64,000 bases of DNA, taken from positions 496,001 through 560,000 of the forward strand of contig NZ_AOCK01000001.1 of assembly GCF_000348945.1 (NCBI RefSeq), in the 5' to 3' direction. The notes beneath the pieces were generated by a model. It saw nothing but the letters and a program-made list of their open reading frames with translations, was not told the origin of the DNA and ran no database searches. The stretch's first letter is position 1; each line of letters begins with the position of its first letter. This DNA is from Paeniglutamicibacter gangotriensis Lz1y (GTDB lineage Bacteria; Actinomycetota; Actinomycetes; Actinomycetales; Micrococcaceae). Positions 36,682 to 53,427 of this stretch are shown here, in pieces. A program made the position numbers and the translations under genes.

Positions 36682-36691
36682 GCACCGGATT

Positions 36692-36744
36692 CAACGGAGC
36701 GTCGTGGCCTCACCACAACCTGGTGGGACCACGACGCTCCGTTG
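36692..36744 (+). terminator. Terminator of the DUF4956-VTC operon
   Basis: 16-bp perfect stem (36692-36707 with 36729-36744) and a smaller CCAC/GTGG stem in the loop, 10 bases after the stop. Confidence 0.75.
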
Positions 36745-36791
36745 CTGTGTGCGGGAGTTCAATCGCATCCACCGCTTGGATGCGATTGGTC

Positions 36792-36945
36792 GTTAAAGGT
36801 TTGAGCACCGGCCGGAAGATTCGGGGGAGGAATCTTGTTTCCAGCCGGTGCTCGCATCACTCGCACCTTCATGAGGTACTAACGACTCTATGATGCAAAC
36901 CTATGGATTTGATGTGGCCGGCCATGACGTTGAGTGTGAAAAATC
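36792..36945 (+). repeat. Dispersed hairpin repeat, copy 1
   Basis: The core 36792-36890 is 99 nt and differs from copy 2 (39129-39227) by one base. GAGCACCGGC (36803-36812) pairs with GCCGGTGCTC (36844-36853), and AAGATT pairs with AATCTT inside. A weaker similarity continues to about 36945 (CTATGGAT, CCATGACGTTG, GTGTGAA). It sits at the 3' side of the leftward MFS gene. Confidence 0.85.
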
Positions 36946-36960
36946 GTCGTGGGTTGCGTG

Positions 36961-38232: not shown

Positions 38233-38243
38233 GAGGGGGCCTT

Positions 38244-38837
38244 TCATTTGTTGGCGAGCAGGCCGTTGAGGGAAAGCTCGATGGTGTTGCGGAGGGTGGT
38301 CTGGTCCAGTTCGCTGGTGTCGCGCATCAGCCGGAAGACGGCCGCGCCGAAGATGACATCGATGGCCACGTTGATGTCCACATCGGCAACGATCGCACCG
38401 GCGTCGATGGCGCGGGTGAACAGCGGAAGCATAGTTTCGCGGCGGGGGCCCAGATAGTACTCCTGAAAATACAGGGCGCCGCTCGGCTCCATCGAGCAGG
38501 CGGCCAGCAGCTGGAAGAACACCCTGCCACTTTCGATGCTGTGAAAGCTCAGTGAGGCGACCGCGAAGTCAATCAGATCCGCCAGGGGATCGACGCACTC
38601 GGGGATCGTGAGGGCCGCGGTGGCCGTGCGCCCGAATGCCTCGGCCACGATGGCGTTCTTTGACGGCCAGTGCTTGTAGATGGTTGCGGTGCTGACACCT
38701 GACCGGGTAGACAGGCGTTCGATGGTTACTCCAGGGAAGCCCGCCTCGAGCAGCAGTTCATTGGTGGCGGCCAGGACCACTTGGTGCGTTTGCTGGCTCC
38801 GGGGCCGGGTGCTGACTGGCCAAATGCTGATATCCAC
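38244..38837 (-). CDS. TetR-family repressor
   Basis: A 197-residue TetR-type regulator. The helix-turn-helix VTIERLSTRSGVSTATIYKH with WPSK following is typical; the C-terminal ligand domain has no obvious specificity. The start is taken at GTG 38837 because AAGGGG lies 7 bases upstream; TTG 38843 is the alternative. It forms an operon with the MFS gene and probably represses both through the palindrome at 38852-38873. Confidence 0.88.
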   Translation of the reverse strand: MDISIWPVSTRPRSQQTHQVVLAATNELLLEAGFPGVTIERLSTRSGVSTATIYKHWPSKNAIVAEAFGRTATAALTIPECVDPLADLIDFAVASLSFHSIESGRVFFQLLAACSMEPSGALYFQEYYLGPRRETMLPLFTRAIDAGAIVADVDINVAIDVIFGAAVFRLMRDTSELDQTTLRNTIELSLNGLLANK

Positions 38838-38851
38838 GCGCAACCCCTTAA

Positions 38852-38873
38852 CTAAAGTGACACTTCACTTTAG
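38852..38873 (-). promoter_or_regulatory. TetR operator palindrome
   Basis: CTAAAGTG-N6-CACTTTAG, with a nested AAGTGACACTT, lies 15 bp upstream of the TetR start codon. Size and symmetry fit an autoregulatory TetR site. Confidence 0.65.
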
Positions 38874-39128
38874 CATTGGAGCAAATACATCGCCTGGGAA
38901 TGCGGAGGTGATACCGGGCACCAGCAGTGGGCGGGCCGTGATAGGTGGGCACCGGCAGCATCGAGTGTTGCTGCGTCGGAATGGATCCGCCGAGGGCTGC
39001 CGAAGTCCTAAAAGCGAACCGCTGTCAAAGGTGCCATGGCGATGCGAGGAGCACGACAGGGGCTCTGCCACATGGAGTGCGTGGCGGATGTTGCCGGCAC
39101 GGTTTCCTGGACGATGAGGAAACACGTG
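38874..39128. other. Intergenic stretch upstream of repeat copy 2
   Basis: Nothing coding that I can support; no recognisable motifs apart from the TetR operator at its left edge and the repeat at its right edge. Confidence 0.4.
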
Positions 39129-39280
39129 GTTAAAGGTTTGAGCACCGGCCGGGAGATTCGGGGGAGGAATCTTGTTTCCAGCCGGTGCTCGCATCACTCG
39201 CACCTTCATGAGGTACTAACGACTCTAGGGTCCGGAGCTATGGATACGATGTGCCTGTCCATGACGTTGGGTGTGAATAC
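39129..39280 (+). repeat. Dispersed hairpin repeat, copy 2
   Basis: Core 39129-39227, 98 of 99 positions identical to copy 1. The single difference turns AAGATT into GAGATT, which keeps pairing with AATCTT as a G-U pair if the + strand is the RNA. Similarity weakens but continues to about 39280. It lies 155 bp upstream of the antitoxin gene. Confidence 0.85.
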
Positions 39281-39434
39281 GTTGCTCGAGGGTGGCCAGC
39301 AGGTAACGCGTGTCAAAGTCATAAGGCGCGAGCGCCGGCGATGCATGCACACCACTTGAAATGCAGTTCTGTCGATCCGTGGACTTGGAGCTGGCCCCGT
39401 ACGTACAATGTGAGTACAAGAAAGGTGGCGTGTA

Positions 39435-39713
39435 ATGGAAACGAGACCCCAGAAGACGCAGAGGATCAATTTACGGGCGACTGCCAGCCAAGAAGAAGCC
39501 ATTCGACGTGCGGCCGATGCGACTCATAGGTCAGTCACTGACTTTATCTTGGAAGCAGCAAGCATTGAAGCGGACCGGGTCATGGCAGACCGCCACCGAT
39601 TTGCCCTCAGCGCAGCGCAATTCTCGGAATTTGAGCGGCTGCTCGATCAGGAATTGCCTTCGAATTCCAAGTTGGCAAAACTTACCCGACGCCCGAGCCC
39701 ATTCAAGGGCTAG
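39435..39713 (+). CDS. DUF1778 ribbon-helix-helix antitoxin (TacA-like)
   Basis: A 92-residue antitoxin. The N-terminal ribbon-helix-helix reads RINLRATASQEEAIRRAADA and VTDFILEAA; the C-terminal tail would wrap the toxin. RBS AAAGGTGG precedes the ATG. It is followed after 3 bp by a GNAT toxin gene. Such antitoxins usually repress their own promoter with the toxin as corepressor. Confidence 0.88.
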   Translation: METRPQKTQRINLRATASQEEAIRRAADATHRSVTDFILEAASIEADRVMADRHRFALSAAQFSEFERLLDQELPSNSKLAKLTRRPSPFKG

Positions 39714-39716
39714 GCG

Positions 39717-40229
39717 GTGGAGCAAACTGATTTTCAGGTTCCTCGACGGCTCATGACAGACGACGATCGGACCTCATTTGCAAGCGGAGCCCCCGAACTA
39801 GATCGCTGGTTCCAGCGCTCCGCTCTTGAAAGCCAACGTGCGAATCGAGCCGTCACCTACGTTGCGACTGATGGCCAATCGATCATCGGATATTATTCGA
39901 TTGTTGTCTCGGCGGTCGAAAAAGCCGAGACTCCGGCAAAATTTGGCAAACCGTCCGACCCCCGACTGATACCTTGCATTTTGCTGGCACGTTTAGCGGT
40001 TTCGCAGCAACATCAAGGCATGGGGGTTGGGGCAGGACTGTTCAAGGACGCACTGGAGCGCTCGGCGTTCTTGAGTGAATCGGTGGCGGCGCAGGCGATG
40101 CTGATTCATGCAAGGGAAGAAGCAGCCAAGGCCTTCTACAAAAACCTCGCCGAGTGTTTTGAGTTGCCGGGCAATCCCCTGCACCTGATGATTCCCATGA
40201 AATGGATCCGCTCCAATTTTCTTCCGTAA
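39717..40229 (+). CDS. GNAT-family toxin (TacT-like tRNA acetyltransferase)
   Basis: A 170-residue acetyltransferase. Family toxins acetylate the aminoacyl group of charged tRNA and stop translation. Visible are ARLAVSQQHQGMGVGAGLFK (the acetyl-CoA-binding motif) and AFYKNLAECFELPGNPLHLM with the catalytic-region tyrosine. GTG start at 39717 directly after the antitoxin stop. Pairing with DUF1778 makes the toxin-antitoxin assignment firm. Confidence 0.88.
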   Translation: MEQTDFQVPRRLMTDDDRTSFASGAPELDRWFQRSALESQRANRAVTYVATDGQSIIGYYSIVVSAVEKAETPAKFGKPSDPRLIPCILLARLAVSQQHQGMGVGAGLFKDALERSAFLSESVAAQAMLIHAREEAAKAFYKNLAECFELPGNPLHLMIPMKWIRSNFLP

Positions 40230-40267
40230 TCCGCTGAAAACTGGTGATCTCCAATGAGCGCCAAGCC

Positions 40268-40298
40268 GCCGGTCAGATGGTTTCTCCATCTGACCGGC
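40268..40298. terminator. Bidirectional terminator between toxin and cre operon
   Basis: 13-bp perfect stem GCCGGTCAGATGG/CCATCTGACCGGC with loop TTTCT, between the convergent genes ending at 40229 and 40315. Confidence 0.75.
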
Positions 40299-40314
40299 AA
40301 CCCGGTTTCCGGCA

Positions 40315-41817
40315 TCAACGGCGGTGAATCGACTTATAGCTCAGGTACGCGGCCAGTCCCTCGGGGCCGTATTCAGTGCCCAACCCGGAATCATTGCGCC
40401 CGCCAAAGGGTGCGGCATGGTTGGACGCGAAGAAGTTGATGCCGACGCTGCCGGTGTCCATGCGCTCGGCGGCGGCCTGCGCGGCATCGGTATCGGCGCC
40501 AAAGACGAGGCCGCCCAGACCGAACTCGGTGTTGTTGGCCAGTGCTATACCCTCATCGATCCCGTCGTAGCGCAATATCGAGACCACCGGCCCGAAGATT
40601 TCCTCCCGGGATATCCGCATCCCGGGTGTCACATCAGCAAACACCGTCGGGGCAATGAAGTAGCCTGCGTCCAGGCCACCGCCCAACTGCACCTTGTGTC
40701 CGCCGGTGGTGGCACGGGCGCCCTCTGCCCGGCCCGACTCGATGTAATCGAGCACCGTGCGGTACTGGCTGGCGGTGGCCGTGGGTCCGAAGACCGTGGC
40801 CGGATCCAACGGGTCCCCCTGGGGCGCGGCGGAAATCGTGGAGGTCACCAGCTCCACGACCTCGTCGTAGCGCTGCGTCGGGGCGAGGATTCGCGTGGAA
40901 ATGTAGCAGGTCTGGCCGGTGTTGCGCATGCAAGAGCGAATTAGATTGCTCCCCATGGCGTCCAGATCCGCATCGGGAAGCACCAGCGCGCTGGACTTGC
41001 CTCCCAATTCGAGGGTGACCGGACGCAGCAGTTCCCCGCAGGCGGAGGCGATCTTGCGTCCCACCGGCGTGGAGCCGGTGAACGCCACCTTGTTGACCAG
41101 CGGGTGCTTGACCAGCGCATCGCCCAGCCGTCCCGACCCGGTGACCAGGTTGGCCACACCATCCGGAACACCTGCGGCGGCCAACGCATCCATGATGATC
41201 CTGAATGACAGTGGCGTGGGGGAGGCAGGCTTCATCACCACGGTGCACCCGGCCAGGAGCGCGGGCGCCAGCTTGATGACCATCAGGTTGATCGGGAAAT
41301 TCCACGGGGCAATCAGCCCACACACACCCACCGGGTCCCGGCGCACCAAGGATTCACCCAGACCGTTGGGGAACGGACGGACATCCTCGGATTCCAGCAA
41401 CGGGGCCAGCGAGGCGAAGTAGCGGAAGATGGACGCCGCGTTTGCTGCTGCACCCTTGGTCTCCGAGATCGGAGAGCCGTTCTCCAACGTGTTGGTCAGC
41501 GAGAGCTCGGTGGATCGCGCCTCGATCTGATCGGCAACGCGCAGCAGCACCACGGCGCGTTCGGACGGGGCCAAGCGCGGCCACGGACCGGAGTCGAAGG
41601 CGGTACGAGCGGCGACTACCGCCTTCTCGAGGTCTTCGGTGGTGCCCTCGGCGACCGAACCCCACACCAATGCGGTGGCCGGGTCGGTGACGTCGTTTCG
41701 GGCGGTAGTCGTTGACGCAATCCAGACACCGTCGATGAAGTGGGTGTCGACGTGGCGGTAGGGAAGGACAATCGCTTCGCGCGCGGCCGCGGAGCCAAGC
41801 AGCTGTTGCATGCTCAT
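40315..41817 (-). CDS. creC: Aldehyde dehydrogenase of the 4-cresol pathway
   Basis: A 500-residue NAD(P)-dependent aldehyde dehydrogenase. The catalytic cysteine is in MRNTGQTCYI and the general-base glutamate in LELGGK; cofactor-binding motifs are APWNFPINL and FTGSTPVGRKIA. In the operon it would oxidise 4-hydroxybenzaldehyde (or its phosphate ester) to the acid. Its start overlaps the HD phosphohydrolase gene by 4 bp, and it is the last gene of the cluster. The letter creC follows gene order in the C. glutamicum cluster and my memory; it could be swapped with creG. Confidence 0.82.
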   Translation of the reverse strand: MSMQQLLGSAAAREAIVLPYRHVDTHFIDGVWIASTTTARNDVTDPATALVWGSVAEGTTEDLEKAVVAARTAFDSGPWPRLAPSERAVVLLRVADQIEARSTELSLTNTLENGSPISETKGAAANAASIFRYFASLAPLLESEDVRPFPNGLGESLVRRDPVGVCGLIAPWNFPINLMVIKLAPALLAGCTVVMKPASPTPLSFRIIMDALAAAGVPDGVANLVTGSGRLGDALVKHPLVNKVAFTGSTPVGRKIASACGELLRPVTLELGGKSSALVLPDADLDAMGSNLIRSCMRNTGQTCYISTRILAPTQRYDEVVELVTSTISAAPQGDPLDPATVFGPTATASQYRTVLDYIESGRAEGARATTGGHKVQLGGGLDAGYFIAPTVFADVTPGMRISREEIFGPVVSILRYDGIDEGIALANNTEFGLGGLVFGADTDAAQAAAERMDTGSVGINFFASNHAAPFGGRNDSGLGTEYGPEGLAAYLSYKSIHRR

Positions 41818-42518
41818 CGCAGTACCGCCGTATGCAGCAGGTCGCGCGAACGCTCCAGGTCAGTGGTCGCCATGTCCACAGCGGCGGCGGTGATGAGCTC
41901 CGGGATGATCTCGGTTTCCAGCCGGTCCGTGTAATCGGCAGGGTTCTGCGAGAACCAGCCGGCGGCCAGCGCGATGCCGGCATGGTCGAAGCGCCACAGC
42001 CTGTCGGCGTCGCGCATCAGCGCGTCCTCTAGGGAGTGAGCCACCGGACGGGTGTCGTGCCCGTCGATGATGGCACAGACCGCCTCGATGAACTCGAGCT
42101 CGTAGCCCAGTGGAGGCAAGACTCGCCGGGCCACCTCGCAGCCCAGCCGTTCGTGCTCAAAGCGGATGCCTGCCTTGCGCCAATCACCGCGGAAACCCTC
42201 GGAGATGATCTTGGTTTCATCCACATGTGCCCAGCCGGTGTCGTGCAGCAAGGTGGAAACCAACACCAGCTCACGGTTCGCTTCGGGGTAGGCATCACAC
42301 AGGCGGCGGGCGAAGGCCAGCGAGATCGGCAGGTGGATGTCGTTGCCGCGGGCCCGGGTCTCTGGAACTACCGCGGTCCACAGCGGAAGCAGATCCGGTT
42401 CGAGGCCAGGAGTGAGGCAAATCGGGCTGGTGTCCACCTGCTCGGGTGTGGGAATGGGGCGTTGCGGGTAGGCCGCGGCAAAGTCGGCACCGGGATCGGT
42501 ATCGGTGAGGGTATTCAT
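41814..42518 (-). CDS. creD: HD-domain phosphohydrolase, aryl phosphate hydrolase of the 4-cresol pathway
   Basis: A 234-residue metal-dependent HD-superfamily enzyme. Metal-binding residues are seen in STLLHDTGWAHVD, the FEHERLGCEVA histidine, IIDGHDTRP and RDADRLWR. In the known pathway CreD removes phosphate from the oxidised aryl phosphate, releasing 4-hydroxybenzyl products. The start at 42518 is preceded by AAGGAG; an ATG at 42539 is less likely. It overlaps the aldehyde dehydrogenase gene by 4 bp. A paralogue lies at 50470-51219. Confidence 0.82.
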   Translation of the reverse strand: MNTLTDTDPGADFAAAYPQRPIPTPEQVDTSPICLTPGLEPDLLPLWTAVVPETRARGNDIHLPISLAFARRLCDAYPEANRELVLVSTLLHDTGWAHVDETKIISEGFRGDWRKAGIRFEHERLGCEVARRVLPPLGYELEFIEAVCAIIDGHDTRPVAHSLEDALMRDADRLWRFDHAGIALAAGWFSQNPADYTDRLETEIIPELITAAAVDMATTDLERSRDLLHTAVLR

Positions 42519-42566
42519 GTCGCGTACGGCTCCTTGCATCAGAGAAAAGTATGGGGGCGAGGGGGA

Positions 42567-43865
42567 CTAGGCAATCAAGGTCTTGAGCATCGTGGCCGGA
42601 TCTGCCGCGGCCACCGAGTCAATGGACCTGCCGGCGGCCAGAGCCTGTTTGACGGCCATGAAATCCAACGGTGCATTGACCGCGTCCGCGGCAATGATCC
42701 GCCCGGAGCGGTAGTAGAGCACCGTGAATTTTCCTCTCTCCGGATCCCTGCGGAGCACCGTGGAATCGAACCCGGTGGACAGCCCGGCGATCTGCAGCTT
42801 CATATCGGCCTGGTTGGACCAGAACCAGGGGATACCTGCATATTCCTCACTGCGCCCCATGAGCGAATAGGCCGCGACCTTCGCGTGCTCGATGGCGTTG
42901 TTCACCGATTCGAGACGGATGCGCTCACCGGTCGGGGCGCCCGGGACCGGGTTGGGCATGTTGGCCACATCCCCGACCACGATGGTGGTGCCGTCGGAGG
43001 CCACAGCCCCGGAATCGACGAGGATACCGTTGTTGACTTCCAGGCCCAGGGCCTCACCGAGCTCGGTATTGGGGATGACGCCGATGCCCACCAAGACGAT
43101 CTGGGCTTTGAGCACGTCACCGTCCTCAAGTTTGACTCCGCACAGCGCACCATGGCCGTCATCAATGATTTCTTCGATGCGGGCACCGATGCGGATGTCC
43201 AGGCCGCGCTTGCGGTGTTCGGTGAGGAAATATTCACTGGTTTCCTCACCCACGGCTCGGCCCACCAACCGCGGCCCGTATTCCAAGACCGTGACACGCT
43301 TGCCCATGGAAGCCAGGGAACTCGCTGCCTCCAATCCGATGAAACCGCCGCCGACCACGACCACGTCGGTGGTGGTTGGTGCCAGCTCCTTCAGACGCAA
43401 AGCGTCGTCGGCGTTGCGCAGGTATACGACCCCGTCCAATCCGGCGCCGGGTGCTTCCAGCAGCCGCGGGCGGGCCCCGACGGTCAGGGCCAGCCGGGTA
43501 TAGGGGTAGTCGGTACCCGAGGTGCCGTGGGCGAATCCGCTGCCGTCGGGGTTGGAGTCCAGAGACGCGATCCGCTCGCCCTTGACCAGCGTGATGTGGT
43601 GTTCAATCCAGTACTCGTTGGTGCGGAAGATCAGCGACTCGGAACCGACCTTGTCCTGGAGGAATTCCTTGGACAGCGCGGGGCGTTGGTAGGGGCGGTG
43701 GTCCTCATCGCCCAGCAGCGTGATGTGTTCGGTGTAGCCCAGGGCGCGTAAGGAAATGGCCAGCTGCACCCCGGACTGGGAAGCTCCGATGATGAGCAGC
43801 CCGGTGGCGGTGCCCGCGGTAGGAGCCTCGGCGCCGGCGAGCGAGGGGACGATGAGCGTTTCCAT
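42567..43865 (-). CDS. creE: Ferredoxin reductase for the P450 system
   Basis: A 432-residue FAD- and NAD(P)H-dependent reductase of the putidaredoxin reductase type. The FAD-binding start is LLIIGASQSGVQLAISL, the NAD-binding motif VVVVGGGFIGLEAAS, and the late FAD motif GDVANMPNP. It passes electrons to the ferredoxin encoded 3 bp upstream and so to the P450. Letter assignment creE versus creF rests on gene order. Confidence 0.88.
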   Translation of the reverse strand: METLIVPSLAGAEAPTAGTATGLLIIGASQSGVQLAISLRALGYTEHITLLGDEDHRPYQRPALSKEFLQDKVGSESLIFRTNEYWIEHHITLVKGERIASLDSNPDGSGFAHGTSGTDYPYTRLALTVGARPRLLEAPGAGLDGVVYLRNADDALRLKELAPTTTDVVVVGGGFIGLEAASSLASMGKRVTVLEYGPRLVGRAVGEETSEYFLTEHRKRGLDIRIGARIEEIIDDGHGALCGVKLEDGDVLKAQIVLVGIGVIPNTELGEALGLEVNNGILVDSGAVASDGTTIVVGDVANMPNPVPGAPTGERIRLESVNNAIEHAKVAAYSLMGRSEEYAGIPWFWSNQADMKLQIAGLSTGFDSTVLRRDPERGKFTVLYYRSGRIIAADAVNAPLDFMAVKQALAAGRSIDSVAAADPATMLKTLIA

Positions 43866-43868
43866 GTT

Positions 43869-44189
43869 TTAAACCTGCGTTTCCGGGGTGGTCACGTGCA
43901 GTTCCTGGCCTTCGGCCAAGCGGATTTGGCAGGAGAGCCGGGAGTTATCCGCACGGTCCTCGGCGGTTCCGTAGAGCATCTCATCCTCCATCTCGCCCAT
44001 GGGTTCCAGGCTCGGCAGATCGGCCTCGGCCACAAAAACGTGGCAGGTGGCGCAGGAGAGCGAACCGCCGCATTCGGCGACGATGGCCGTGACGCCGTTG
44101 CGGACGGCGGTCTCCATGACCGAATCGCCGGCATTGGCGTTGATGGTGGTGGTGGCACCTGCTGCATCGGTGAAGTGGACTGTAGTCAT
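43869..44189 (-). CDS. creF: [2Fe-2S] ferredoxin for the P450 system
   Basis: A 106-residue adrenodoxin/putidaredoxin-type ferredoxin. Cluster ligands are Cys40, Cys46, Cys49 (ECGGSLSCATC) and Cys87 (RLSCQIRL). The start follows AAAGGTCC. It lies between the reductase and SDR genes and serves as electron carrier from the reductase to the P450. Confidence 0.93.
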   Translation of the reverse strand: MTTVHFTDAAGATTTINANAGDSVMETAVRNGVTAIVAECGGSLSCATCHVFVAEADLPSLEPMGEMEDEMLYGTAEDRADNSRLSCQIRLAEGQELHVTTPETQV

Positions 44190-44207
44190 GGTGGTCTTCG
44201 GACCTTT

Positions 44208-44969
44208 CTAGATGAACTGGCGGCCACCGTCGACGACGAGCGTCTGACCGGTGATGAACGATGAGTCGGGGCCGGCAAGGAAAAGCGCGGCACCGACGAT
44301 GTCTTCTGGTTGGCTGGCCCGTTTGAGTGCGCCGCGGTCGACCCCGTAGCTTTCGGCGTTTTCCATCAGCCCGAAGCTGGCCTCGGTGAGGGTGAAGCCC
44401 GGAGCGATGGTGTTGACAGTGATGTCTCGTCGGCCCAATTCCTTGGCCATAACCCGGGACAAGGCAATGACACCGCCCTTGGAAGCGACGTAGTGGGCCC
44501 ACTGCTCGGAGCCGGAATAGACGGTGGCGGAGGCCAAGTTGATGATCCGCGAGCCGGCGCCCAGATGGGGACTCAGGGCTCTGGCCATCAGCCACGGACC
44601 CTTGAGATTCACGGCCATCACCCTGTCCCACTCGTCGGTATCGATATCTTCGAAGGGGGAGCGGGTGACGGTGGCGTAGATGGCCGCGTTGTTGATCAGG
44701 ACTTGGATGTGCCCGCCGGCAAATCCCGCGACTTCGGCGGCGAGGGCCTCGGTGGAGGCGCGGCTGGTGACATCGACGGTGAAGCCTGCGGCGGTGCCGC
44801 CGGCGGCCTGGACCAGCTCAACGGTGGTGGCAGTGCCTGCCGGATCGATATCCGCCGCGGCGATCCGGTAGCCGCGCTTGGCGAAGCCCAGGGCAAAGGC
44901 CCTGCCGAGTCCTCCTGCGGCGCCGGTGATAAGCACCGTGCCGGGGGCGGTGGGTGATTCGGTGTTCAT
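44208..44969 (-). CDS. creG: Short-chain dehydrogenase (benzylic alcohol dehydrogenase of the pathway)
   Basis: A 253-residue SDR with cofactor motif TGAAGGLGRAF, NNAA, catalytic Ser in LASATVYSG and YVASK (Tyr-x3-Lys). Acidic residues after beta-2 (AAADIDPAG) favour NAD. In the cluster it should oxidise 4-hydroxybenzyl alcohol to the aldehyde. The start at 44969 gives the standard SDR length; the longer open frame to 45338 lies in the preceding gene. Assigned creG by position; the exact letter is uncertain. Confidence 0.8.
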   Translation of the reverse strand: MNTESPTAPGTVLITGAAGGLGRAFALGFAKRGYRIAAADIDPAGTATTVELVQAAGGTAAGFTVDVTSRASTEALAAEVAGFAGGHIQVLINNAAIYATVTRSPFEDIDTDEWDRVMAVNLKGPWLMARALSPHLGAGSRIINLASATVYSGSEQWAHYVASKGGVIALSRVMAKELGRRDITVNTIAPGFTLTEASFGLMENAESYGVDRGALKRASQPEDIVGAALFLAGPDSSFITGQTLVVDGGRQFI

Positions 44970-45097
44970 GTGCTGTACCTGGGGGCCTTTCACGGGGACG
45001 GATGCCGGGGTGGAAAATCTGCTGGGGTGGTGGGCGGGGCCTTGGGGTGCCCCGCCCGCCTGTGGATGCCAGGGTCTGCTCTTGGGGGCGAGCAGTC

Positions 45098-46963
45098 TTA
45101 GGCGTGCGTGTGGGAGTGCGCGCCGGGTCCGGAGACCACCGGTGACTCCTCCAGGATTTCGACGGTGCCCTTGGTGCCATCCACGCGCAGCATCTGGCCG
45201 GTGCGGATGGTGGTGGAGGCGCTTCCGGTTCCGGTGACGGCCGGCAGCCCGTACTCGCGGCAAACGATCGCCGCGTGGCTCATCATCCCGCCGATGTCGG
45301 TGACGGTCGCCTTGATCTTGCCGAAGATCGGGCCCCAACTGGGTGCGGTGATCGGTGCGACGAGGATTTCCCCCGGCTGCACCTCGGAGAGGTCATCGGC
45401 GTGCATGACGACCCGGGCCGGGCCCTCGACCCGGCCGGGGGAGGCCGCCATGCCCTTGAGCACACCGGTTTCGCCCTCCTCGTCCCCGCCCAGCCACTGC
45501 TGGACCTGCTCGGTGGTGATGCCCCACAGCATCCGGGTGAACGGCTCGGTGATGATCTCCGGCGGGGTGTTCAGGGCCGGGGCCGGGCGGGCGGTCTTCA
45601 GCGCATCGACGATGCCGCGGCGGCGTTCGATCTCCTTCGGCCACACGACGTTGCCGATCGGGTCTCCGGCGCCGATGCCCCAGGAAGTGACGAGGTCAAA
45701 GAGCACGTCGCGGACCTCGTTGCGGCCCAGGTAGAGCATGTCCTCGGGTTCGTTCCACAGGCCCTGGGCATGGAGCATGCGGCTCAGTTCGCGGACCTTG
45801 CGCCAGAACACGCCCATGGTCCAGTGCTCGATGTAGAAGTTGTGGTTTTCCACGTACGGGTAGGCGGTGGCGGCCAGGGTGCGCTTGGCATCGAAGACCT
45901 CGCGGATTTCCGGATCCAGCAGTTCCCGGTATTCGGAGACGATGCGGTCCTTCTCCTCGATCAGCTTCGCCGTGGGGCGCATGATGTTCGCACCGTCCTG
46001 CAACCGGCGGATGTAGTCGGCGATGAAGCCCAGCGGGATCTCCTGGTGCTCGATCCAGTACTTGTCGTGCCCGTAGAAGCCGTTGCCGATCGTGAAGTTG
46101 AACCAGGGGTCCTTGGCTTCTTCCCAGCGGGCCAACCAGGTTTCCCCGCCCTGTGAGGCGGCAATGGTCGCCAAGGTGGCGGCTGGGTCATCGGTGTTGG
46201 AGAACGAGTCGGTGATTTCCAGTTCCACGGCCAGCTTGGCCAGGTCCTTGAGTTCATCATCGGGGCGGAAAAGTTCCATGTCCACGCCCTGGACCATGGT
46301 GGCGATCGACTGGTCGGGCATGTTCGGGAAGACTTCCTTGCAGAAGTTGAAGAAATCCAGGTAGGCAATGTAACCCAGGTTCAGGAACTCAAAGTGGTAC
46401 TGCCAATTCTGGTAACAGAGCTGGATCAGCCGGTCGTAGTTCTCCAGCAGCACCTCCGAACCATCCTTGGCCTTGCCGGAGAGAATGTCTTCCATCGGCA
46501 CCATCTCGGGCAGGGCCTCGAAGCTGAGAGCCTCCATATCGCTGATGGTGCCCTTGACCTTCACGTGCCACTGCTCCAGTAGGGTTTCCCAGTTGGCGAA
46601 GTAGTGTCCGATGCGGGCCTCGAATTCCGGGACACGGGCGGCGATCTGTTCTTCCGGCACGGGCAGGGGGGACATATAGAGGTAGCCGAGGTGGATGCGG
46701 AAGTCGATGCCGTTGGCGTTGGGGATCATCAGGTGGCGGGCGTTGTACTGGCCCAGGCACTTGACGGCGAATTCCCCGCCGATGGTTTCAAAGGGCTTGA
46801 AGACGGTGGGCCAGTGCTGCGAGTCGCAGAACCAGAACTTCTCGTCTTCCTCGGCCTTCAGTGCGTCCTGGAAGACCAGGTAGTACGGGTAGAGCTCCTC
46901 CCAGCCTTCGGCGCCCGGAGGGACTTGGAGATCGGAGGGCTTGGGAAAGGATTTCATGCTCAT
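45098..46963 (-). CDS. creH: Aryl phosphate synthase subunit with phosphohistidine domain (CreH-like)
   Basis: A 621-residue PEP-utilising-enzyme-family protein. The C-terminal swivelling domain holds the phosphorylated histidine in GGMMSHAAIVCREYGLPAV (His near residue 562). The N-terminal 450 residues are the specific acceptor region, rich in aromatic residues (WQYHFEFLNLGYIAYLDFFN). Size and split organisation match the large subunit of phenylphosphate synthase and 4-methylbenzyl phosphate synthase CreH. With the ATP-grasp subunit it would phosphorylate the phenolic hydroxyl of 4-cresol using ATP. A His-rich tail (AHSHTHA) ends the protein. Confidence 0.85.
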   Translation of the reverse strand: MSMKSFPKPSDLQVPPGAEGWEELYPYYLVFQDALKAEEDEKFWFCDSQHWPTVFKPFETIGGEFAVKCLGQYNARHLMIPNANGIDFRIHLGYLYMSPLPVPEEQIAARVPEFEARIGHYFANWETLLEQWHVKVKGTISDMEALSFEALPEMVPMEDILSGKAKDGSEVLLENYDRLIQLCYQNWQYHFEFLNLGYIAYLDFFNFCKEVFPNMPDQSIATMVQGVDMELFRPDDELKDLAKLAVELEITDSFSNTDDPAATLATIAASQGGETWLARWEEAKDPWFNFTIGNGFYGHDKYWIEHQEIPLGFIADYIRRLQDGANIMRPTAKLIEEKDRIVSEYRELLDPEIREVFDAKRTLAATAYPYVENHNFYIEHWTMGVFWRKVRELSRMLHAQGLWNEPEDMLYLGRNEVRDVLFDLVTSWGIGAGDPIGNVVWPKEIERRRGIVDALKTARPAPALNTPPEIITEPFTRMLWGITTEQVQQWLGGDEEGETGVLKGMAASPGRVEGPARVVMHADDLSEVQPGEILVAPITAPSWGPIFGKIKATVTDIGGMMSHAAIVCREYGLPAVTGTGSASTTIRTGQMLRVDGTKGTVEILEESPVVSGPGAHSHTHA

Positions 46964-47033
46964 GGTGGTGGATGCCTTTCAAAAGTTGCTGTTGCGGAGT
47001 CGTCGAAGAAGCGACGAACGAGTGTGCGGAACG

Positions 47034-48128
47034 TCAGGAAGCGGAATTCATCAGCGAAGCGGTGATTGAGGGAATGTTGAAGCCCGCGCCCAGGCCGAGG
47101 GAGGAGGCGTAGCCGCCACCCGTGGGCTTGGCGGTGGTCTTGGAAGAGTGCACCGTCTCGGGGCGGGACTGAAGCAGAAGCAGGTTATCGCCTTCCGGCA
47201 AATCCGCATCCAGGGCCCACTCAATGTCTTGCGGGCAGCCGTAGTGTTTCTCGGCGCGTTTGGCCAGCTGGGCGACCAAGGCCAAATCGACGTCTGACAG
47301 GCAGCGCACCGCTCGACGCTCCTCACTGACTTCGACCTCCACCAAGGAGTTGGTGGCGGTATCCGGGATCAGCTCGGCATGCTTGGCACCGATGTGCTCG
47401 GTGATGATCGCCAGGGTGACCTTGTCCAGCTGGATGTTATCCGGGGTGACAGTCCCGGAGACGACCATTTCCCCGACACCGTAGGAGGCATCGATGGTGA
47501 TCTTGGAACGGTCCCCGTTGGTTGGATCCAGGGTCATGGCCACGCCGGAAGCGGAGGAATTGACCATTTTTTGCACGACCACGGCCATGGACAGGCCCTC
47601 GTCGGGGATGTTGTTCTTCAGCCGGTACAAGATGGCCCGCGAGGTGTAGAGCGAGGCCCAGCACTGGCGGATGTGTTCGGTGACCGAGGCGTAGCCGTTG
47701 AGCCAGAGATAGGTGTCCTGCTGCCCGGCAAACGAGGCATCGGGCAGGTCCTCGGCGGTGGCCGAGGAACGTACGGCCAACGGGACCTCTGCTGTGAAGC
47801 CCTCCTGCAGGGTGGTGTAGGCATCCTTCGTGACTTCACGCAGGGCTGCGGGCACCGGGCGTTGGGTGATCATCAAGCGGATCGTGGCGCTGGCGGCGTC
47901 GAGGGCCTTGACGTCCTCGGGATCGAGGCCCGCCAGCAGGGCGTTGATCTCTGCGGTGATGCCACCTTCCATGAAGGCGTCAAATGCGGCGGTGGTGACG
48001 ACAAAACCGGGAGGCACCGGCATTCCGGCGGAGGTCATGGTCACCAGCGAGGCACCTTTGCCACCGAGGTTTTCCAGTTTTGGTTCGGCGCCGCCGTCGA
48101 AGAATTCGATGAAGTCGTTGTTGCTCAT
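47034..48128 (-). CDS. creI: Aryl phosphate synthase ATP-grasp subunit (CreI-like)
   Basis: A 364-residue protein consisting of the PEP/pyruvate-binding (PPDK N-terminal) ATP-grasp domain only. Motifs: LGGKGASLVTM, VRSSATAEDLPDASFAGQQD near residues 119-138, and LLLLQSRPETV near the end. It lacks the phosphohistidine domain, which is supplied by the next gene, 70 bp downstream. It overlaps the P450 stop (ATGA). Full PEP synthases fuse these parts; the split form is typical of phenol-phosphorylating enzymes. Confidence 0.86.
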   Translation of the reverse strand: MSNNDFIEFFDGGAEPKLENLGGKGASLVTMTSAGMPVPPGFVVTTAAFDAFMEGGITAEINALLAGLDPEDVKALDAASATIRLMITQRPVPAALREVTKDAYTTLQEGFTAEVPLAVRSSATAEDLPDASFAGQQDTYLWLNGYASVTEHIRQCWASLYTSRAILYRLKNNIPDEGLSMAVVVQKMVNSSASGVAMTLDPTNGDRSKITIDASYGVGEMVVSGTVTPDNIQLDKVTLAIITEHIGAKHAELIPDTATNSLVEVEVSEERRAVRCLSDVDLALVAQLAKRAEKHYGCPQDIEWALDADLPEGDNLLLLQSRPETVHSSKTTAKPTGGGYASSLGLGAGFNIPSITASLMNSAS

Positions 48129-49411
48129 GCCTGGGATTCCTTCCAGCTCACGTTGACGTATTCGGGGACGCGGAAAGAGATGTTCTTGCGGAACGTGATG
48201 TCTTCCCCGTCAATCAGTTCAAGGCCCGGGATTCTGGAGCTCAGTTCCTCCAGGGCGATCTTGGCCTGCAGTTTGGCGAGCATGTTGCCCAGGCAGTAGT
48301 GGATGCCGAAGCCAAACGAGAGATGTTCGCGGGCGTTGGTCCGGGTGATGTCGAAGGCCTCGGGGTTCTCGAAGCGGTCTCCATCGCGGTTGGCGGCGCC
48401 CATCAACAGCAAAAGCTCTGCACCTTCGGGGATTTTGACCCCGGCAACCTCGGTGTCCTTCAGCGCCTTGCGGCGCCAGCCGACAATCGATCCTGCGTAA
48501 CGCAGCACCTCGTCGATGGCCGCCGAGATGGACTTGGGGTTTTCGACAATCTGGTCCCAGGCTTCGCGGTGGGCCAACAGGACGCGGACGCAATTGGATA
48601 TCAGCGTGGTGGTGGTTTCGTGCCCGGCGAAAAGCAGAGAGTAGAGCAGCGACGCGATCTCGTGGTCGGTGATTTCCGCGCCCTCGGTTTGGGCCTTGAC
48701 CAGGTCCGCGGTGAGGTTGTCCCCACCGTGTTTGTGGGCGTGGGCCACCAAGCGCAGGCATTCGGCCCAGTACTCAACGAGATTGTGGGCGTGCGGGATC
48801 TGTTCCTCATCGCTCAAATCGCCCCAGGTCATGGCCGCACGCGAATCGCTCCAGCGCTTGTAGGTATCTACCTGGGTGACATCGGCTCCGATGAGGGTGA
48901 GGATGGTGATGGTCGGGATGGCGTAGGCCAGATCCTTGACGATGTCCCCTTCAGCAGACTCACGGGCCAGCATGGCTTCGATCGAGGTCACGACGTTTGC
49001 GCGGATGGAGGGTTCAAGGGCCTTGAAGCGGCGTGGAGTGAAGGCTTTCTGCGCGATGGCCCGGATACGGGTGTGTTCCGGCGGGCGGCGGGCCGAAAGG
49101 CCGGAATAGGTGGTGAAGCCGCCGTCGTTCATGATCTGGGTGGCCTGCGGGCCGCGCTTGCGCACCGGGGCCTGGGCATTCTCTGAGGAGAAAGTCTCCC
49201 AGTCCTCGAATACCGCCTTGACGTCGTCGTAGCGGGTGACGACGTAGAGTCCGACGCGTTCGTCGAACATCACGGGTTGTTCGTCGCGGAGGTTCGAGTA
49301 GGAGGGAAACGGGTTTTCCATGGTGAACGGTTCATAACCGTGGTGGTCGGCAGGTGCCGTGGCACCGTGCCCCATGGGGCAAACCCCTGCTGCAACGTCG
49401 CTGCTGGACAT
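48125..49411 (-). CDS. creJ: Class I cytochrome P450 (CreJ-like aryl phosphate methyl hydroxylase)
   Basis: A 428-residue soluble bacterial P450. Visible are the I-helix oxygen-activation motif AGHETTTT (about residues 262-269), the K-helix EVLRYAG (ExxR), and the haem loop HLSFGFGIHYCLGNMLA with the ligand cysteine near residue 375. AAGGAG sits 9 bases before the ATG. It heads the operon; the P450 in the known pathway oxidises the methyl of 4-methylphenyl phosphate stepwise to the carboxylate. Ferredoxin and reductase for it are in the same operon. Confidence 0.87.
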   Translation of the reverse strand: MSSSDVAAGVCPMGHGATAPADHHGYEPFTMENPFPSYSNLRDEQPVMFDERVGLYVVTRYDDVKAVFEDWETFSSENAQAPVRKRGPQATQIMNDGGFTTYSGLSARRPPEHTRIRAIAQKAFTPRRFKALEPSIRANVVTSIEAMLARESAEGDIVKDLAYAIPTITILTLIGADVTQVDTYKRWSDSRAAMTWGDLSDEEQIPHAHNLVEYWAECLRLVAHAHKHGGDNLTADLVKAQTEGAEITDHEIASLLYSLLFAGHETTTTLISNCVRVLLAHREAWDQIVENPKSISAAIDEVLRYAGSIVGWRRKALKDTEVAGVKIPEGAELLLLMGAANRDGDRFENPEAFDITRTNAREHLSFGFGIHYCLGNMLAKLQAKIALEELSSRIPGLELIDGEDITFRKNISFRVPEYVNVSWKESQA

Positions 49412-49547
49412 GGAACGGACTCCTTGAGGAAAGAAGGTCGGGTAGTCGCTGCCGGTTTGTGGCCTGCGCTACATTCATTGCCTCAAGTGTTACCCATGAC
49501 ACATCGAATGGGTGTGGATCATTTCTCACTCAGTGGAAACTGTTTCA
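49412..49547 (-). promoter_or_regulatory. Promoter region of the cre-like operon
   Basis: The 136 bp between the IclR gene and the P450 start. It holds the 11-bp palindrome GAAACTGTTTC (49536-49546) next to the IclR stop, a possible regulator site. No terminator hairpin was seen, so readthrough from the regulator gene is possible. Confidence 0.4.
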
Positions 49548-50387
49548 TTACTCGCTATGGGGTGGCTGAAGAAGCTCGCCCGATGTGAGACTTCCCAGCA
49601 GGGTTTCGAGTGGGATATGCGCGGTCGACGCCTCGATCCGCTGGGAGATTCCTTGCAGCACGGGAAGATGCCGGAGCATGGCGCCAGCGTTGGTCGATGC
49701 CACGACCAGACCGATCGAGCAGCCAATGCGTCCGGTGTGAAAGACCGGGACGGCAATCGAGCACGCCCCAAGGATGACCTCCTCCTGGGTTGCGGCATAC
49801 CCTCGGGCCCTCACCTGGGCCAGCTCGGTGCGTAACCGGCCCGGATTGACATGGGTGTGTCCGGTGATCGGCGCCAAGGGCTGGCTCAGGTAGGCATCGG
49901 TGACCCAGTCTTCCGAATAGGCAAGGATCACTTTGCCCACCGCCGTGGCGTGCAGCGGCAACCGGCCGCCGACCCGTGAGGCACGCGGAACCCTCTTGGA
50001 GCCATACACCCTGTCGATGTACAGGGCCATATTTCCGTCGCGCACGGCCAGCTGGCTGGTTTCCCCGGTCAGTGAGAACAGGTCCTGGACGAAGGGGCGC
50101 GCGGTGTCACGCAGTTGGCGCCCGGCATTCTGGGCGATGGCCCACAACCGCAACCCCAGTTGGACCCCACCGGTCGACCCTCGGCTGAGCATGCCCCATT
50201 CGATCAGCTCATTCACCAATCGATGTGTGGTGCTCAGTGGTACGCCAGAGGCCTCGGAAATCTCGGTCAGGCTCAAGGCCCGACGCGAGGTCTCGAACAC
50301 TTCCATGATCGCAAGGACCTTGGACGTCACGGTGCTTCCCGGCACCCGGTTCCCGCCGGCCATCAGCTCACTCCTCTTGCGTCCCAT
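49548..50387 (-). CDS. IclR-family regulator of the cre-like operon
   Basis: A 279-residue IclR-type regulator. Winged helix: SLTEISEASGVPLSTTHRLV; effector domain with RLPLHATAVGKVILAYSEDW and EEVILGACSIAVPVF. RBS GAGGTG precedes the ATG. It is directly upstream of the P450 gene in the same direction, so it most likely controls the aryl phosphate pathway, with the phenol or an aromatic product as effector (inference). Confidence 0.86.
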   Translation of the reverse strand: MGRKRSELMAGGNRVPGSTVTSKVLAIMEVFETSRRALSLTEISEASGVPLSTTHRLVNELIEWGMLSRGSTGGVQLGLRLWAIAQNAGRQLRDTARPFVQDLFSLTGETSQLAVRDGNMALYIDRVYGSKRVPRASRVGGRLPLHATAVGKVILAYSEDWVTDAYLSQPLAPITGHTHVNPGRLRTELAQVRARGYAATQEEVILGACSIAVPVFHTGRIGCSIGLVVASTNAGAMLRHLPVLQGISQRIEASTAHIPLETLLGSLTSGELLQPPHSE

Positions 50388-50469
50388 GCGTGCACCTCGG
50401 GTGCACAGCTTGAGTCTAACGGCGTGCGCTGGGGGCGGGTCTAGGGGAGACGGAAGAACGGGCGGGGTA

Positions 50470-51219
50470 TCAGGAACCCTTCTGCAGTTCCTGACTTCGC
50501 GGCCAGAGGTTGGCCTGTTCCAGGGCGATCAGCCCGTTTGCCATGGTGGTTGCCTCGGGTGTGAAAAGTTTGCCCACCACCCGGGATGCGCACAGTCGCA
50601 GGGCCTGGCCGCGATGCAGCCCGAACCAGTCCATGATGGTGTCCAGCCCGTGCGGGGTTAGACGCCAGAGCTTGTCTGCGTCCTTGACGATCTCATCGTC
50701 GGGGTTCAGTGCGTGGGTGCGCGAGTCATGGCCGTCGATGATCGCCGCTACCTTCTCGATCACCAGCGAATCCACGCCCAAGGATTCAAGGATCTCGGTG
50801 GCCAGCCGGGCACCTTCCTTTTCATGCAGCAGCACCAGATCGGGTCGACCGCCGCCGGGGGCGATTGCCGAGAGGACCAGTCCTGGCTCGACCTGTGACC
50901 ACCCAATGTCGTGCAGCATCATGGCCGGCAGGACCACATCTGGGTCTGCCTGCTCTCGTTCATCGAGCAACGCGGCAGCCAACGCCACGGCGTAGAGCGT
51001 ATGCGAGTCGTTGTCGCGCACTGCCAACAGGCCTCGTGCCCGAGCCCAGATTTCGCCGAGCAACGGATAGATCTCGAAAAGATCGGGACGGGGCAACGGG
51101 ATGTGGTCGGAGGTATCGAATCCGAAATGGTTTGCCAGCGGGGCCAATTTGATCATGGGCACATGCTTGCACCTGTGTGCTCGTTCCCCAAGCAATTTCT
51201 CCCGGGCAGTGGAATCCAC
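50470..51219 (-). CDS. Second HD-domain phosphohydrolase, paralogue of the pathway enzyme
   Basis: A 249-residue HD-superfamily protein that shares with the enzyme at 41814 the segments MMLHDIGWSQVE (LLHDTGWAHVD), LHEKEGARLATEIL, IIDGHDSR and KDADKLWR. It therefore has the full set of metal ligands. It lies 82 bp upstream of the IclR gene in the same direction. The start is uncertain: GTG at 51219 gives the longest frame, while ATG at 51156 (MIKLAPLANHFG) would be closer to the family length. It may hydrolyse a second aryl phosphate or broaden the pathway's substrate range. Confidence 0.78.
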   Translation of the reverse strand: MDSTAREKLLGERAHRCKHVPMIKLAPLANHFGFDTSDHIPLPRPDLFEIYPLLGEIWARARGLLAVRDNDSHTLYAVALAAALLDEREQADPDVVLPAMMLHDIGWSQVEPGLVLSAIAPGGGRPDLVLLHEKEGARLATEILESLGVDSLVIEKVAAIIDGHDSRTHALNPDDEIVKDADKLWRLTPHGLDTIMDWFGLHRGQALRLCASRVVGKLFTPEATTMANGLIALEQANLWPRSQELQKGS

Positions 51220-51285
51220 GTTGGTCCAGCGTGCGGGCGATCCCCGGCATTCAGCCCGTGAAATTCCCGTTTGCAGGTCCGTAAC

Positions 51286-51380
51286 TTAAATGAGTGAGCA
51301 CCGGTCGGGAGATCCTTGGGGGAAATCTTCCGGCCGGTGCGTTCATCACTCGCACCTTCATGAGGTAGTACCTACTCTAG
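51286..51380 (+). repeat. Dispersed hairpin repeat, copy 3 (diverged)
   Basis: Shares GAGCACCGG and the nearly identical right part CATCACTCGCACCTTCATGA with copies 1 and 2, but the middle has changed. The hairpin is kept: 51298-51313 pairs with 51325-51340 over 16 positions including two G-U type pairs. It lies at the 3' side of the leftward MFS gene, as copy 1 does. Confidence 0.8.
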
Positions 51381-51442
51381 GGAAGCCTTCTGTGCTTCCG
51401 GTATGCGCAGGCATCACGTTCTATGTGATTGTCGGGTGGGCG

Positions 51443-52720
51443 TCAGGAATGTGAAAAATGCATGCTTCCGCGCCGCCCGACCAGGACCACGGACAAGATG
51501 ATGCCCAAGGCGGCGAAGGCACAGGTCATCCACCACGTGGAAGACCACCCGCCGGTGGTCATGGCCAGCCAAGCCACGATCATCGGTCCGGTGAAGTTCC
51601 CAATGTTGTAGATCTGCTGCATGAGTCCCATGGCCGCGGGGGCAGAGCCTCCCTCGGGTGCCAGATCCACGGCCATCCGTGTCATCGTCGCCGGGATCAT
51701 CGCACCGGAGAAGGAAAAGAACCCGACGCAGGCTACCTGCCAGACGAGGCCACCGGGAATGGAAGACCAGTCGACGGCGAAGGTGAGCAGGCTGGCTCCT
51801 CCCATCAAAATGAACGACAGGAACAACAGCACCCGTGCCGGGGCACCACGTTGCAGCAAGATACCGGTGATGATCGCGCCGACTCCGTTGAGTCCGCCGA
51901 CGATGGCGGAGAGGATTCCGGCGTGCGTGCCGCTCAGGCCGCTTTCCCCGTATACCGTGGGCAGGAAACCCACCACTGCCATCCATTGCACGGTGTAGCA
52001 GCCGAACACCAGTCCGGCGATCCACACTTTGGGCGAACGAGCGGTGATGCCGATGCGCCCGGCGGCTGCCTTGGCCCCGCCGGCACCCGCGGGTTGGTCC
52101 TGGGGGACCATCCGCAACACCAATGGGATCGGAACCAGCGTCACTGCGGCCATGACCCACCACCACAGCTGCCAGGTGCCGATCTGCAGGAAGTAGGCGC
52201 TGGCGATCAACCCGATGAATGTCGCCGTCCCTTGATAGGCACTCCAGCAGCCCACTGCCATGTTGACGCGGCGAAACGGTGCGTGGCGGCGGATCAGGCC
52301 GGGGCCCACCACCGTGGCGACAATAAAACCGATACCTTCGATGGCGCGGGAGGCTAGCAGCGTGTCCGCACCGATCGACAGGCCTCCCAGCACCGAACCC
52401 ATGCTGAGGAAGACCAAACCCAACAGCAGTGTGCGGCGTTCGCCGATGTTTTCGGCCAGCAAGGACACCGCCAGGCCGCCGAGCATGCCGGCCACCTGCA
52501 CGATGCCAAGCAGTACTCCCGCGGTCAGCAGGGACAATCCCAGATCCTCTTGGATCAAGGGAAGAGCTGCGGGCAACTTCCAGATATGCAGGGCTGCGGT
52601 GATGCCGGCAATCACCACGACAATCCAGGCTGCATCGCCGCTGGAAGCGCGTTGGAGGTTAGGGCGGGTGACGGTCAAGGTAGAAGGTCCTTCGATGGGC
52701 AATAGAACGGATTCTTCCAT
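51443..52720 (-). CDS. MFS transporter (CynX/NarK-like)
   Basis: A permease of about 425 residues with 12 membrane segments, opening AAWIVVVIAGITAALHIWKL and with a TM2-3 loop AENIGERRTLLLG. It resembles the cyanate/nitrate-nitrite or general anion group of MFS rather than the drug exporters. The start at 52720 is chosen by family length; no strong ribosome binding site is seen, and the frame is open upstream. It follows the aryl phosphate gene cluster in the same direction but is 5' of it by 220 bp and a repeat, so a role in that pathway is possible, not shown. Confidence 0.75.
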   Translation of the reverse strand: MEESVLLPIEGPSTLTVTRPNLQRASSGDAAWIVVVIAGITAALHIWKLPAALPLIQEDLGLSLLTAGVLLGIVQVAGMLGGLAVSLLAENIGERRTLLLGLVFLSMGSVLGGLSIGADTLLASRAIEGIGFIVATVVGPGLIRRHAPFRRVNMAVGCWSAYQGTATFIGLIASAYFLQIGTWQLWWWVMAAVTLVPIPLVLRMVPQDQPAGAGGAKAAAGRIGITARSPKVWIAGLVFGCYTVQWMAVVGFLPTVYGESGLSGTHAGILSAIVGGLNGVGAIITGILLQRGAPARVLLFLSFILMGGASLLTFAVDWSSIPGGLVWQVACVGFFSFSGAMIPATMTRMAVDLAPEGGSAPAAMGLMQQIYNIGNFTGPMIVAWLAMTTGGWSSTWWMTCAFAALGIILSVVLVGRRGSMHFSHS

Positions 52721-52877
52721 GTCGGTGAGCTGGAACACGAAGATATGTCGCTGTGGGAGAGATGCGGTGGAAGCCTGTTGTGTCGTGCAGACGTGTCGGG
52801 TTCCTTCAAGACCGCAGGCCCCCTGCGGCGTTGAATGAAGATCCAGCAAAACATCCAGCAACGAAGGGTGCACGATC

Positions 52878-53411: not shown

Positions 53412-53427
53412 GCAGAAGGGGAATCGG

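Follow-up and report, generated by a model that had tools for sequence, protein, structure and literature searches.

Organization of the locus

The stretch analysed here (the window: 64,000 nucleotides of the soil actinobacterium Paeniglutamicibacter gangotriensis Lz1y, contig NZ_AOCK01000001.1, positions 496,001 to 560,000) contains an operon of the cre type, the gene set associated with 4-cresol in Corynebacterium glutamicum. Eight open reading frames (ORFs) run on the minus strand from 49411 to 40315 in the order creJ-I-H-G-F-E-D-C (Table 1). Their common direction and the families given for them in a preliminary description of the locus agree with the ORFs recovered at these coordinates and with Pfam. 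That description also spoke of short gaps and ATGA overlaps, which holds in part: ATGA overlaps join creJ to creI and creD to creC, and the spacings from creJ to creC are −4, 70, 128, 18, 3, 27 and −4 nt, of which those of 70 and 128 nt are not short and count as a difference from the C. glutamicum operon. A single transcript for all eight genes is likely on sequence grounds. In addition to the motifs in Table 1, the P450 carries the heme motif FGFGIHYCLG, creG encodes YVASK and TGAAGGLG, and creC encodes ELGG and GQTC.

The creH-creG gap (44970-45097) contains a strong GC-rich hairpin. The loci of three congeners that carry cre (L002-L004) have a similar one, and two Glutamicibacter loci (L005 and L007) have one with another sequence; by eye, no U run follows the hairpin in the window or in the three congeners. 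A tally of this gap over 78 loci (median 10.5 nt) included impossible negative lengths and was discarded. It may mark RNA processing that separates the kinase-P450 part from the remaining genes.

Table 1. Features of the cre locus and its surroundings, with clusters discussed from other loci (locus handle before the position).
Feature	Position	Strand	Basis or remark
creJ, cytochrome P450, 428 aa	48125..49411	-	predicted methyl oxidation of 4-methylphenyl phosphate; similarity to 5gwe, heme motif
creI, aryl kinase ATP-grasp subunit, 364 aa	47034..48128	-	Pfam PPDK_N, 360.9 bits; CreI clade; ATGA overlap with creJ
creH, swivel/phosphohistidine and substrate subunit, 621 aa	45098..46963	-	Pfam PEP-utilizers; NCBIfam NF006150; CreH clade
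creG, short-chain dehydrogenase/reductase, predicted 4-hydroxybenzyl alcohol dehydrogenase, 253 aa	44208..44969	-	Pfam adh_short_C2
creF, 2Fe-2S ferredoxin, 106 aa	43869..44189	-	Pfam Fer2; four-cysteine motif
creE, FAD ferredoxin reductase, 432 aa	42567..43865	-	Pfam Pyr_redox_2 and Reductase_C
creD, HD-domain phosphohydrolase, predicted aryl phosphate removal, 241 aa	41814..42539	-	Pfam HD; HD motif
creC, aldehyde dehydrogenase, predicted 4-hydroxybenzaldehyde to 4-hydroxybenzoate, 500 aa	40315..41817	-	Pfam Aldedh; ATGA overlap with creD
Degenerate palindrome copy TTCCACTGAGTGAGAA, candidate operator	49523..49538	-	conserved palindrome upstream of creJ
IclR-family regulator gene	49548..50387	-	Pfam HTH_IclR and IclR_C
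HD2, second HD-domain hydrolase, CreD paralogue, putative role	50470..51219	-	Pfam HD
Hairpin repeat 3' of the operon, terminator-like	39126..39277	-	directly after creC in L002-L004; about 1 kb after creC here
Hairpin repeat between upstream major facilitator superfamily gene and HD2, terminator-like	51286..51382	-	repeat copy
Toluene-4-monooxygenase clusters beside cre, Rhodococcus plasmids	L096 1967-16311; L102 6062-21189		

Correspondence with the cre system of Corynebacterium glutamicum

The gene table in the accessible part of PMC7764795 gives, for C. glutamicum, cg0637 as creC (aldehyde dehydrogenase), cg0638 as creD (phosphohydrolase), cg0639 as creE, cg0640 as creF, cg0641 as creG (4-hydroxybenzyl alcohol dehydrogenase), cg0642 as creH, cg0644 as creI and cg0645 as creJ. 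The window order is that of cg0637-cg0645 in reverse and recurs in two Corynebacterium loci, L094 and L095; the earlier claim of a complete C-D-E-F-G-H-I-J set in reverse thus stands for eight of eight genes.

Over 402 aa the window P450 shares 77.1% identity with PDB entry 5gwe, whose title is cytochrome P450 CREJ, and the search returned E values of 1e-214 for CREJ versus 1e-70 for the next P450s. A predicted model of the protein (mean predicted local distance difference test score, pLDDT, 78) retrieves 5gwe and 5xjn as its top two structural matches, both at Z 48, with the next chain at 41.5; the title of 5xjn describes CREJ with bound (4-ethylphenyl) dihydrogen phosphate. The protein in 5gwe is that of C. 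glutamicum. No CreJ identical to it occurs among the genomes reached; that of Corynebacterium G091 (locus L094) is 95.8% identical to 5gwe and belongs to a complete set of eight cre genes arranged as in the window. The alignment with C. glutamicum CreC-CreJ that had been proposed could be made with 5gwe for CreJ, and with L094 as a stand-in for the others, each of the eight window proteins being 64–77% identical to its L094 counterpart (72% for creG, 64% for creD). Against PDB, CreD gave weak matches at most (best E 0.018). Gene-by-gene orthology, conserved order and the match to CREJ uphold the identification as a cre system, and the genes, their order, their orthology, their motifs and the likely downstream genes described below are all present in this genome.

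The window differs from the Corynebacterium loci in its surroundings. A second HD-domain hydrolase gene (HD2) precedes the IclR gene in the window, and none is found in 17.5 kb of L094 or L095; in both of these the genome site is also different, with a 440-aa ORF resembling SecY (by eye) upstream of cre.

Lineage of the kinase pair

CreH matches NCBIfam NF006150, a subfamily named 'hypothetical protein', at 1239.6 bits, and its motif GGMMSHAAIV places the predicted catalytic histidine at position 563, preceded by serine. According to the accessible part of PMC12167813, which describes the dikinase mechanism, the residue before the catalytic histidine is serine in CreH and PpsA and cysteine in HpeH.

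A CreH tree was built from 68 of 124 extracted homologues; it includes Corynebacterium relatives and lacks C. glutamicum CreH, T. aromatica PpsA and R. rhodochrous GD02 HpeH. The window protein falls, together with Corynebacterium CreH, in a clade of 48 rows with support of 100/100, which takes in each of the 43 rows marked as having creJ for a neighbour, together with five others: the window itself, two genomes present as short stretches, and two loci with creJ at a contig edge. Larger stretches of the two short-stretch genomes (L135 and L136) hold the full operon. Outside the clade lie Azoarcus KH32C, Rhizobium, Haladaptatus, four further distant rows and a 13-row clade from other families; several of these sit on long branches, and how they branch relative to one another is uncertain. 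A quick CreI tree gives the same picture, with window CreI inside a cre clade supported at 100 by the Shimodaira–Hasegawa-like approximate likelihood ratio test. Grouping of the large subunit with anaerobic phenylphosphate synthases had been named beforehand as the outcome that counts against the cre assignment; it was looked for and not found, since the 100/100 clade excludes the Azoarcus protein. On this tree we reject membership of the kinase in the phenylphosphate synthases or the hydroxyphenylethanone (Hpe) kinases.

Both of these systems are relatives. The phenylphosphate synthase PpsAB of anaerobic phenol metabolism is a homologous dikinase, the PpsA-like protein of Azoarcus KH32C being 45% identical to CreH, and it differs in its neighbours, which are phenylphosphate carboxylase genes: ppcB, ppcD, ppcA and ppcG stand beside the kinase in Azoarcus (L098). 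In Rhizobium (L101) the kinase has a biotin carboxylase gene beside it. The ten window proteins scanned with Pfam include neither a phenylphosphate carboxylase nor a biotin-dependent one. The HpeHI pathway of Rhodococcus rhodochrous GD02 shares the two-component dikinase and the phosphorylate-first logic, as far as the accessible parts of PMC9618137 and PMC12167813 describe it, and departs from cre at the next step, which is carboxylation by a biotin enzyme instead of oxidation by a P450, and in the cysteine noted above. Hpe-like rows likewise lie outside the CreH clade, in a tree that does not contain HpeH of GD02 itself.

A separate group of CreH/CreI-like kinases (L137-L150; for example L141 7980-13041) occurs in other actinobacterial families, with 50–54% identity in CreH and no cre neighbours, and possibly serves another phosphorylate-first pathway. 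In L141 the pair is followed by a gene that resembles a Rieske oxygenase by eye and has no NCBIfam match at E 1e-20. Plasmid matches in Thermomicrobium and Haladaptatus are distant kinases with other neighbours.

Distribution among actinobacteria

A scan of named genomes confirmed 119 candidates, of which the best 80 loci were kept. These 80 include Arthrobacter, Pseudarthrobacter, Glutamicibacter, Paeniglutamicibacter, Sinomonas, Brevibacterium and Corynebacterium, as well as Nocardia, Rhodococcus, Streptomyces, Nocardioides, Microbacterium and Georgenia. With two Corynebacterium loci, two plasmids and three further genomes, the set comes to 87 loci. In 82 of the 87 the complete set is colinear on one strand, counting partial matches at contig ends, a figure conditional on the presence of creJ or creH because loci were recruited by CreJ (82) or CreH (5). 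An order shared this widely goes beyond chance. Four of the remaining five are cut by a contig end, and one is a true variant (L159, genome G240) with J, G, F, E and C only.

Of 245 genomes sampled from the window's family, 45 have CreJ at E <= 1e-150, as do 7 of 15 from its genus, its own genome included in both counts; among 201 sampled Corynebacterium, 12 have it at E <= 1e-100. Class-wide, 21 of 394 sampled genomes have a CreH homologue at E <= 1e-60; three of the 394, again with the window's own, are of the cre kind (67–100% identical), and the other 18 are 44–54% identical. Arthrobacter sp. C2 carries two cre operons (L003 and L047; CreJ 92% and 71% identical to that of the window), the second of which has another kinase pair (50% and 43%) in its vicinity.

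The suggestion that the system is more widespread than its type example is borne out by the 82 colinear loci and by the family and Corynebacterium counts; the word 'rare' attached to the strategy is not apt for the window's family. A kinase clade predicted to act on 4-alkylphenols is mentioned in the accessible part of PMC9618137, so that spread beyond one strain is not new as an idea. Among the papers listed by searches of an open-access library, none describes a cre operon outside Corynebacterium, or cre beside toluene monooxygenase genes. The system is already known, and the window operon is a well-preserved member of it.

Predicted pathway

The catalytic steps, the substrate and the control by the IclR protein are carried over from characterised homologues. 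CreH and CreI would form a two-part dikinase that phosphorylates the phenolic hydroxyl of 4-cresol through a phosphohistidine, and CreJ, receiving electrons from CreE and CreF, would oxidise the resulting ester at its para-methyl group. CreD would take the phosphate off, and CreG and CreC would convert the alcohol to the aldehyde and then the acid. The resulting 4-hydroxybenzoate would be passed by the products of pobA and pca genes, encoded elsewhere in the genome, into the beta-ketoadipate pathway. A pobA homologue with adjoining pcaH-, pcaG-, pcaB-, pcaD- and pcaC-like genes lies about 135 kb before the window start, the pobA-, pcaB-, pcaC- and pcaD-like genes having been assigned by NCBIfam and pcaG and pcaH by eye. 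The pcaC-like protein scores above the TIGR02425 cut-off and is the sole pca or pob product above its TIGR cut-off. Taken together, these genes look like a pob-pca cluster, so 4-hydroxybenzoate probably enters the beta-ketoadipate route.

Regulator gene and candidate operator

In 62 of the 76 loci having at least 4 kb upstream, an IclR gene is found on the same strand no more than 1.4 kb ahead of creJ, and by analogy its product likely regulates the operon. Of 84 loci, 61 have a palindrome of the TTCCRYTSARYGGAA type upstream of creJ, where 200 block shuffles gave 0.025 on average and never more than 1; ten of the same upstream regions had been viewed before the pattern was drawn up, and the shuffles keep shared ancestry in. 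The arms of the palindrome co-vary across genera (TTCCACTGAGTGGAA, TTCCGTCCAACGGAA).

A pattern built around the window copy has one exact match in the genome, which is the copy itself, and 44 matches at up to two mismatches, versus 21 for the reversed control. The one match with a single mismatch is 143 nt ahead of pobA, where 15 of 20 genomes with cre and 8 of 10 without it have TCTCATTCAATGAGA or a close variant. Co-regulation of pobA by the cre IclR protein is rejected on this basis, as the palindrome is present independently of cre; a regulator of its own with a related site is therefore more likely.

HD2, probable operon loss in the genus and hairpin repeats

HD2 is 30% identical to CreD over 198 aa. 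Of the 76 loci, 34 have HD2 no more than 4.5 kb upstream of creJ, 31 of them on the same strand. The window was compared by blast with three of eight cre-less congeners (G695, G727 and G625). In G695, HD2 stands between two copies of a hairpin repeat, with no other trace of the operon; G727 has window 39119-40276, then about 20 bp, then 50220-51431 (HD2 and a 5' fragment of IclR); G625 has a 3' piece of creC (40314-41071, 84%) beside HD2. The remnants in G727 and G625 argue for separate losses, and G695 fits loss without proving it. Recent insertion of the cre region is not favoured, as these remnants and the retention of HD2 fit loss better. The emptied sites (L286, L287 and L289) differ from one another, with IclR or creC remnants in two, and the retention of HD2 in all three argues for a role of its own and weakens the idea that it is confined to the cre pathway.

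The hairpin repeat has four genome copies: the two in Table 1, a third in the window at 36789-36940 and one at L194 4673-4781. In sense orientation the three window copies have z scores of −3.2 to −5.3, and the repeat sits about 20–70 nt past a stop codon, for the copy at 39126 only in the congeners. By sequence it looks like a repeated terminator, and in L002-L004 its copies flank HD2-IclR-cre. Rfam gave one match on 36500-53500, at E 0.58 and taken as chance, and none for the repeat; a viral-contig scan with a 15-base piece of it returned 91 loci, which were taken as chance and left unused. Between creC and the repeat, 39435-40229 on the plus strand holds ORFs of 92 and 170 aa that resemble, by eye, a DUF1778-type antitoxin and a GNAT-type toxin. 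Blast finds this stretch in G727 too, and in L002-L004 the repeat follows creC directly.

Toluene-4-monooxygenase neighbours and a hybrid locus

Toluene-4-monooxygenase converts toluene to p-cresol. On plasmid pRB98 of Rhodococcus oxybenzonivorans, a cluster for this enzyme adjoins IclR-cre on its upstream side. A conjugative Rhodococcus ruber plasmid has a related cluster (TmoA 76% identical) downstream of cre on the opposite strand, with IS1380 transposase genes on either side of cre and the monooxygenase, and in R. opacus ATCC 51881 a TmoF fragment stands at the contig edge upstream of cre (L075 3-170). At E <= 1e-15 no other locus then in the set matched toluene-4-monooxygenase, barring a second pRB98 stretch, most loci in this comparison spanning only about 10 kb either side. 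The two layouts suggest two separate associations, and the arrangement on the plasmids suggests toluene breakdown by way of p-cresol and its phosphate. These neighbours point independently to p-cresol as the substrate.

Genome G240 (L159 5941-12700; L152 8849-15257) carries a hybrid HD2-IclR-creJ-G-F-E-C (creJ 59%) without creI, creH or creD, adjoining an Hpe-like kinase pair (46% and 42% to CreH and CreI) and genes for biotin carboxylase and carboxyltransferase. It is conceivable, though we hold it doubtful, that the true unit is HD2-IclR-creJIHGFEDC, a modular aryl-phosphate kit in which HD2 is a second phosphatase able to replace CreD, with G240 and the plasmids as variants. If so, HD2 would be an aryl-phosphate phosphatase with a substrate range of its own, substituting for CreD as in G240. 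There, an Hpe-type kinase would phosphorylate longer-chain 4-alkylphenols, which would pass to the CreJ-type P450 and then to an acetophenone-phosphate carboxylase, and on the Rhodococcus plasmids the kit joined to toluene-4-monooxygenase would make a toluene pathway through 4-methylphenyl phosphate.

Substrate and alternative readings

We consider it very probable that the window operon is orthologous to cre of C. glutamicum and degrades 4-cresol through an aryl phosphate. Several points weigh against this. Catalysis and growth on 4-cresol are predictions for this strain, L094 stood in for the C. glutamicum proteins in all comparisons but that of CreJ, and the window palindrome is degenerate in one arm and fails the strict pattern. 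PobA, at 384.6 bits, is below the TIGR02360 cut-off of 538.7 and above that of NF006091; the pcaB-like protein is best matched by a nitrosuccinate lyase model, also below cut-off, and the pcaB- and pcaD-like proteins are under the curated cut-offs. A system derived from C. glutamicum takes a range of p- and m-alkylphenols, according to the accessible part of PMC9549646, and with these substrates and the 4-ethylphenyl phosphate in 5xjn the natural substrate could be another alkylphenol.

That possibility, which keeps the phosphorylate-first chemistry and directs it physiologically at another p-alkylphenol (4-ethylphenol, for instance) or at several including 4-cresol, strikes us as unlikely. 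The aldehyde dehydrogenase and the short-chain dehydrogenase/reductase fit a methyl-to-acid route, the Rhodococcus monooxygenase neighbours indicate p-cresol, and the pob-pca genes use 4-hydroxybenzoate; these have to be set against the ligand, the substrate range and the creJ-type P450 that adjoins an Hpe-like kinase and a biotin carboxylase in G240. Decay or silence of the operon in this genome, to which the degenerate candidate operator and the remnants in cre-less congeners might point, is highly improbable given eight open frames of normal length with intact catalytic motifs, whose products are 87–94% identical to those of L002-L004. That the kinase pair is an anaerobic phenylphosphate synthase or Hpe kinase amid incidental neighbours is hardly credible: the families are homologous, as the 45% identity to the Azoarcus protein attests, but the tree sets them apart from cre, carboxylase genes of the kind in L098 and L101 are missing from the scanned window proteins, and the eight genes are colinear in nearly all loci.

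Orthology to the 4-cresol operon is thus the reading we retain for the window. Use of cre is not reported for every p-cresol degrader of these genera, as Rhodococcus opacus 1CP has a meta-cleavage route for p-cresol, in a paper whose accessible text contains neither creH nor 'phosphorylat' (PMC13101518).

Implications

Control by the IclR protein at a conserved palindrome is now testable, and the congener and neighbourhood observations make a role for HD2 testable as well. A plasmid-borne toluene route through an aryl phosphate is possible and can likewise be put to the test. The many orthologues are on offer for engineered alkylphenol oxidation systems, and the gene set that phosphorylates and then oxidises 4-cresol is a stable module of many actinobacteria, not a peculiarity of C. 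glutamicum.

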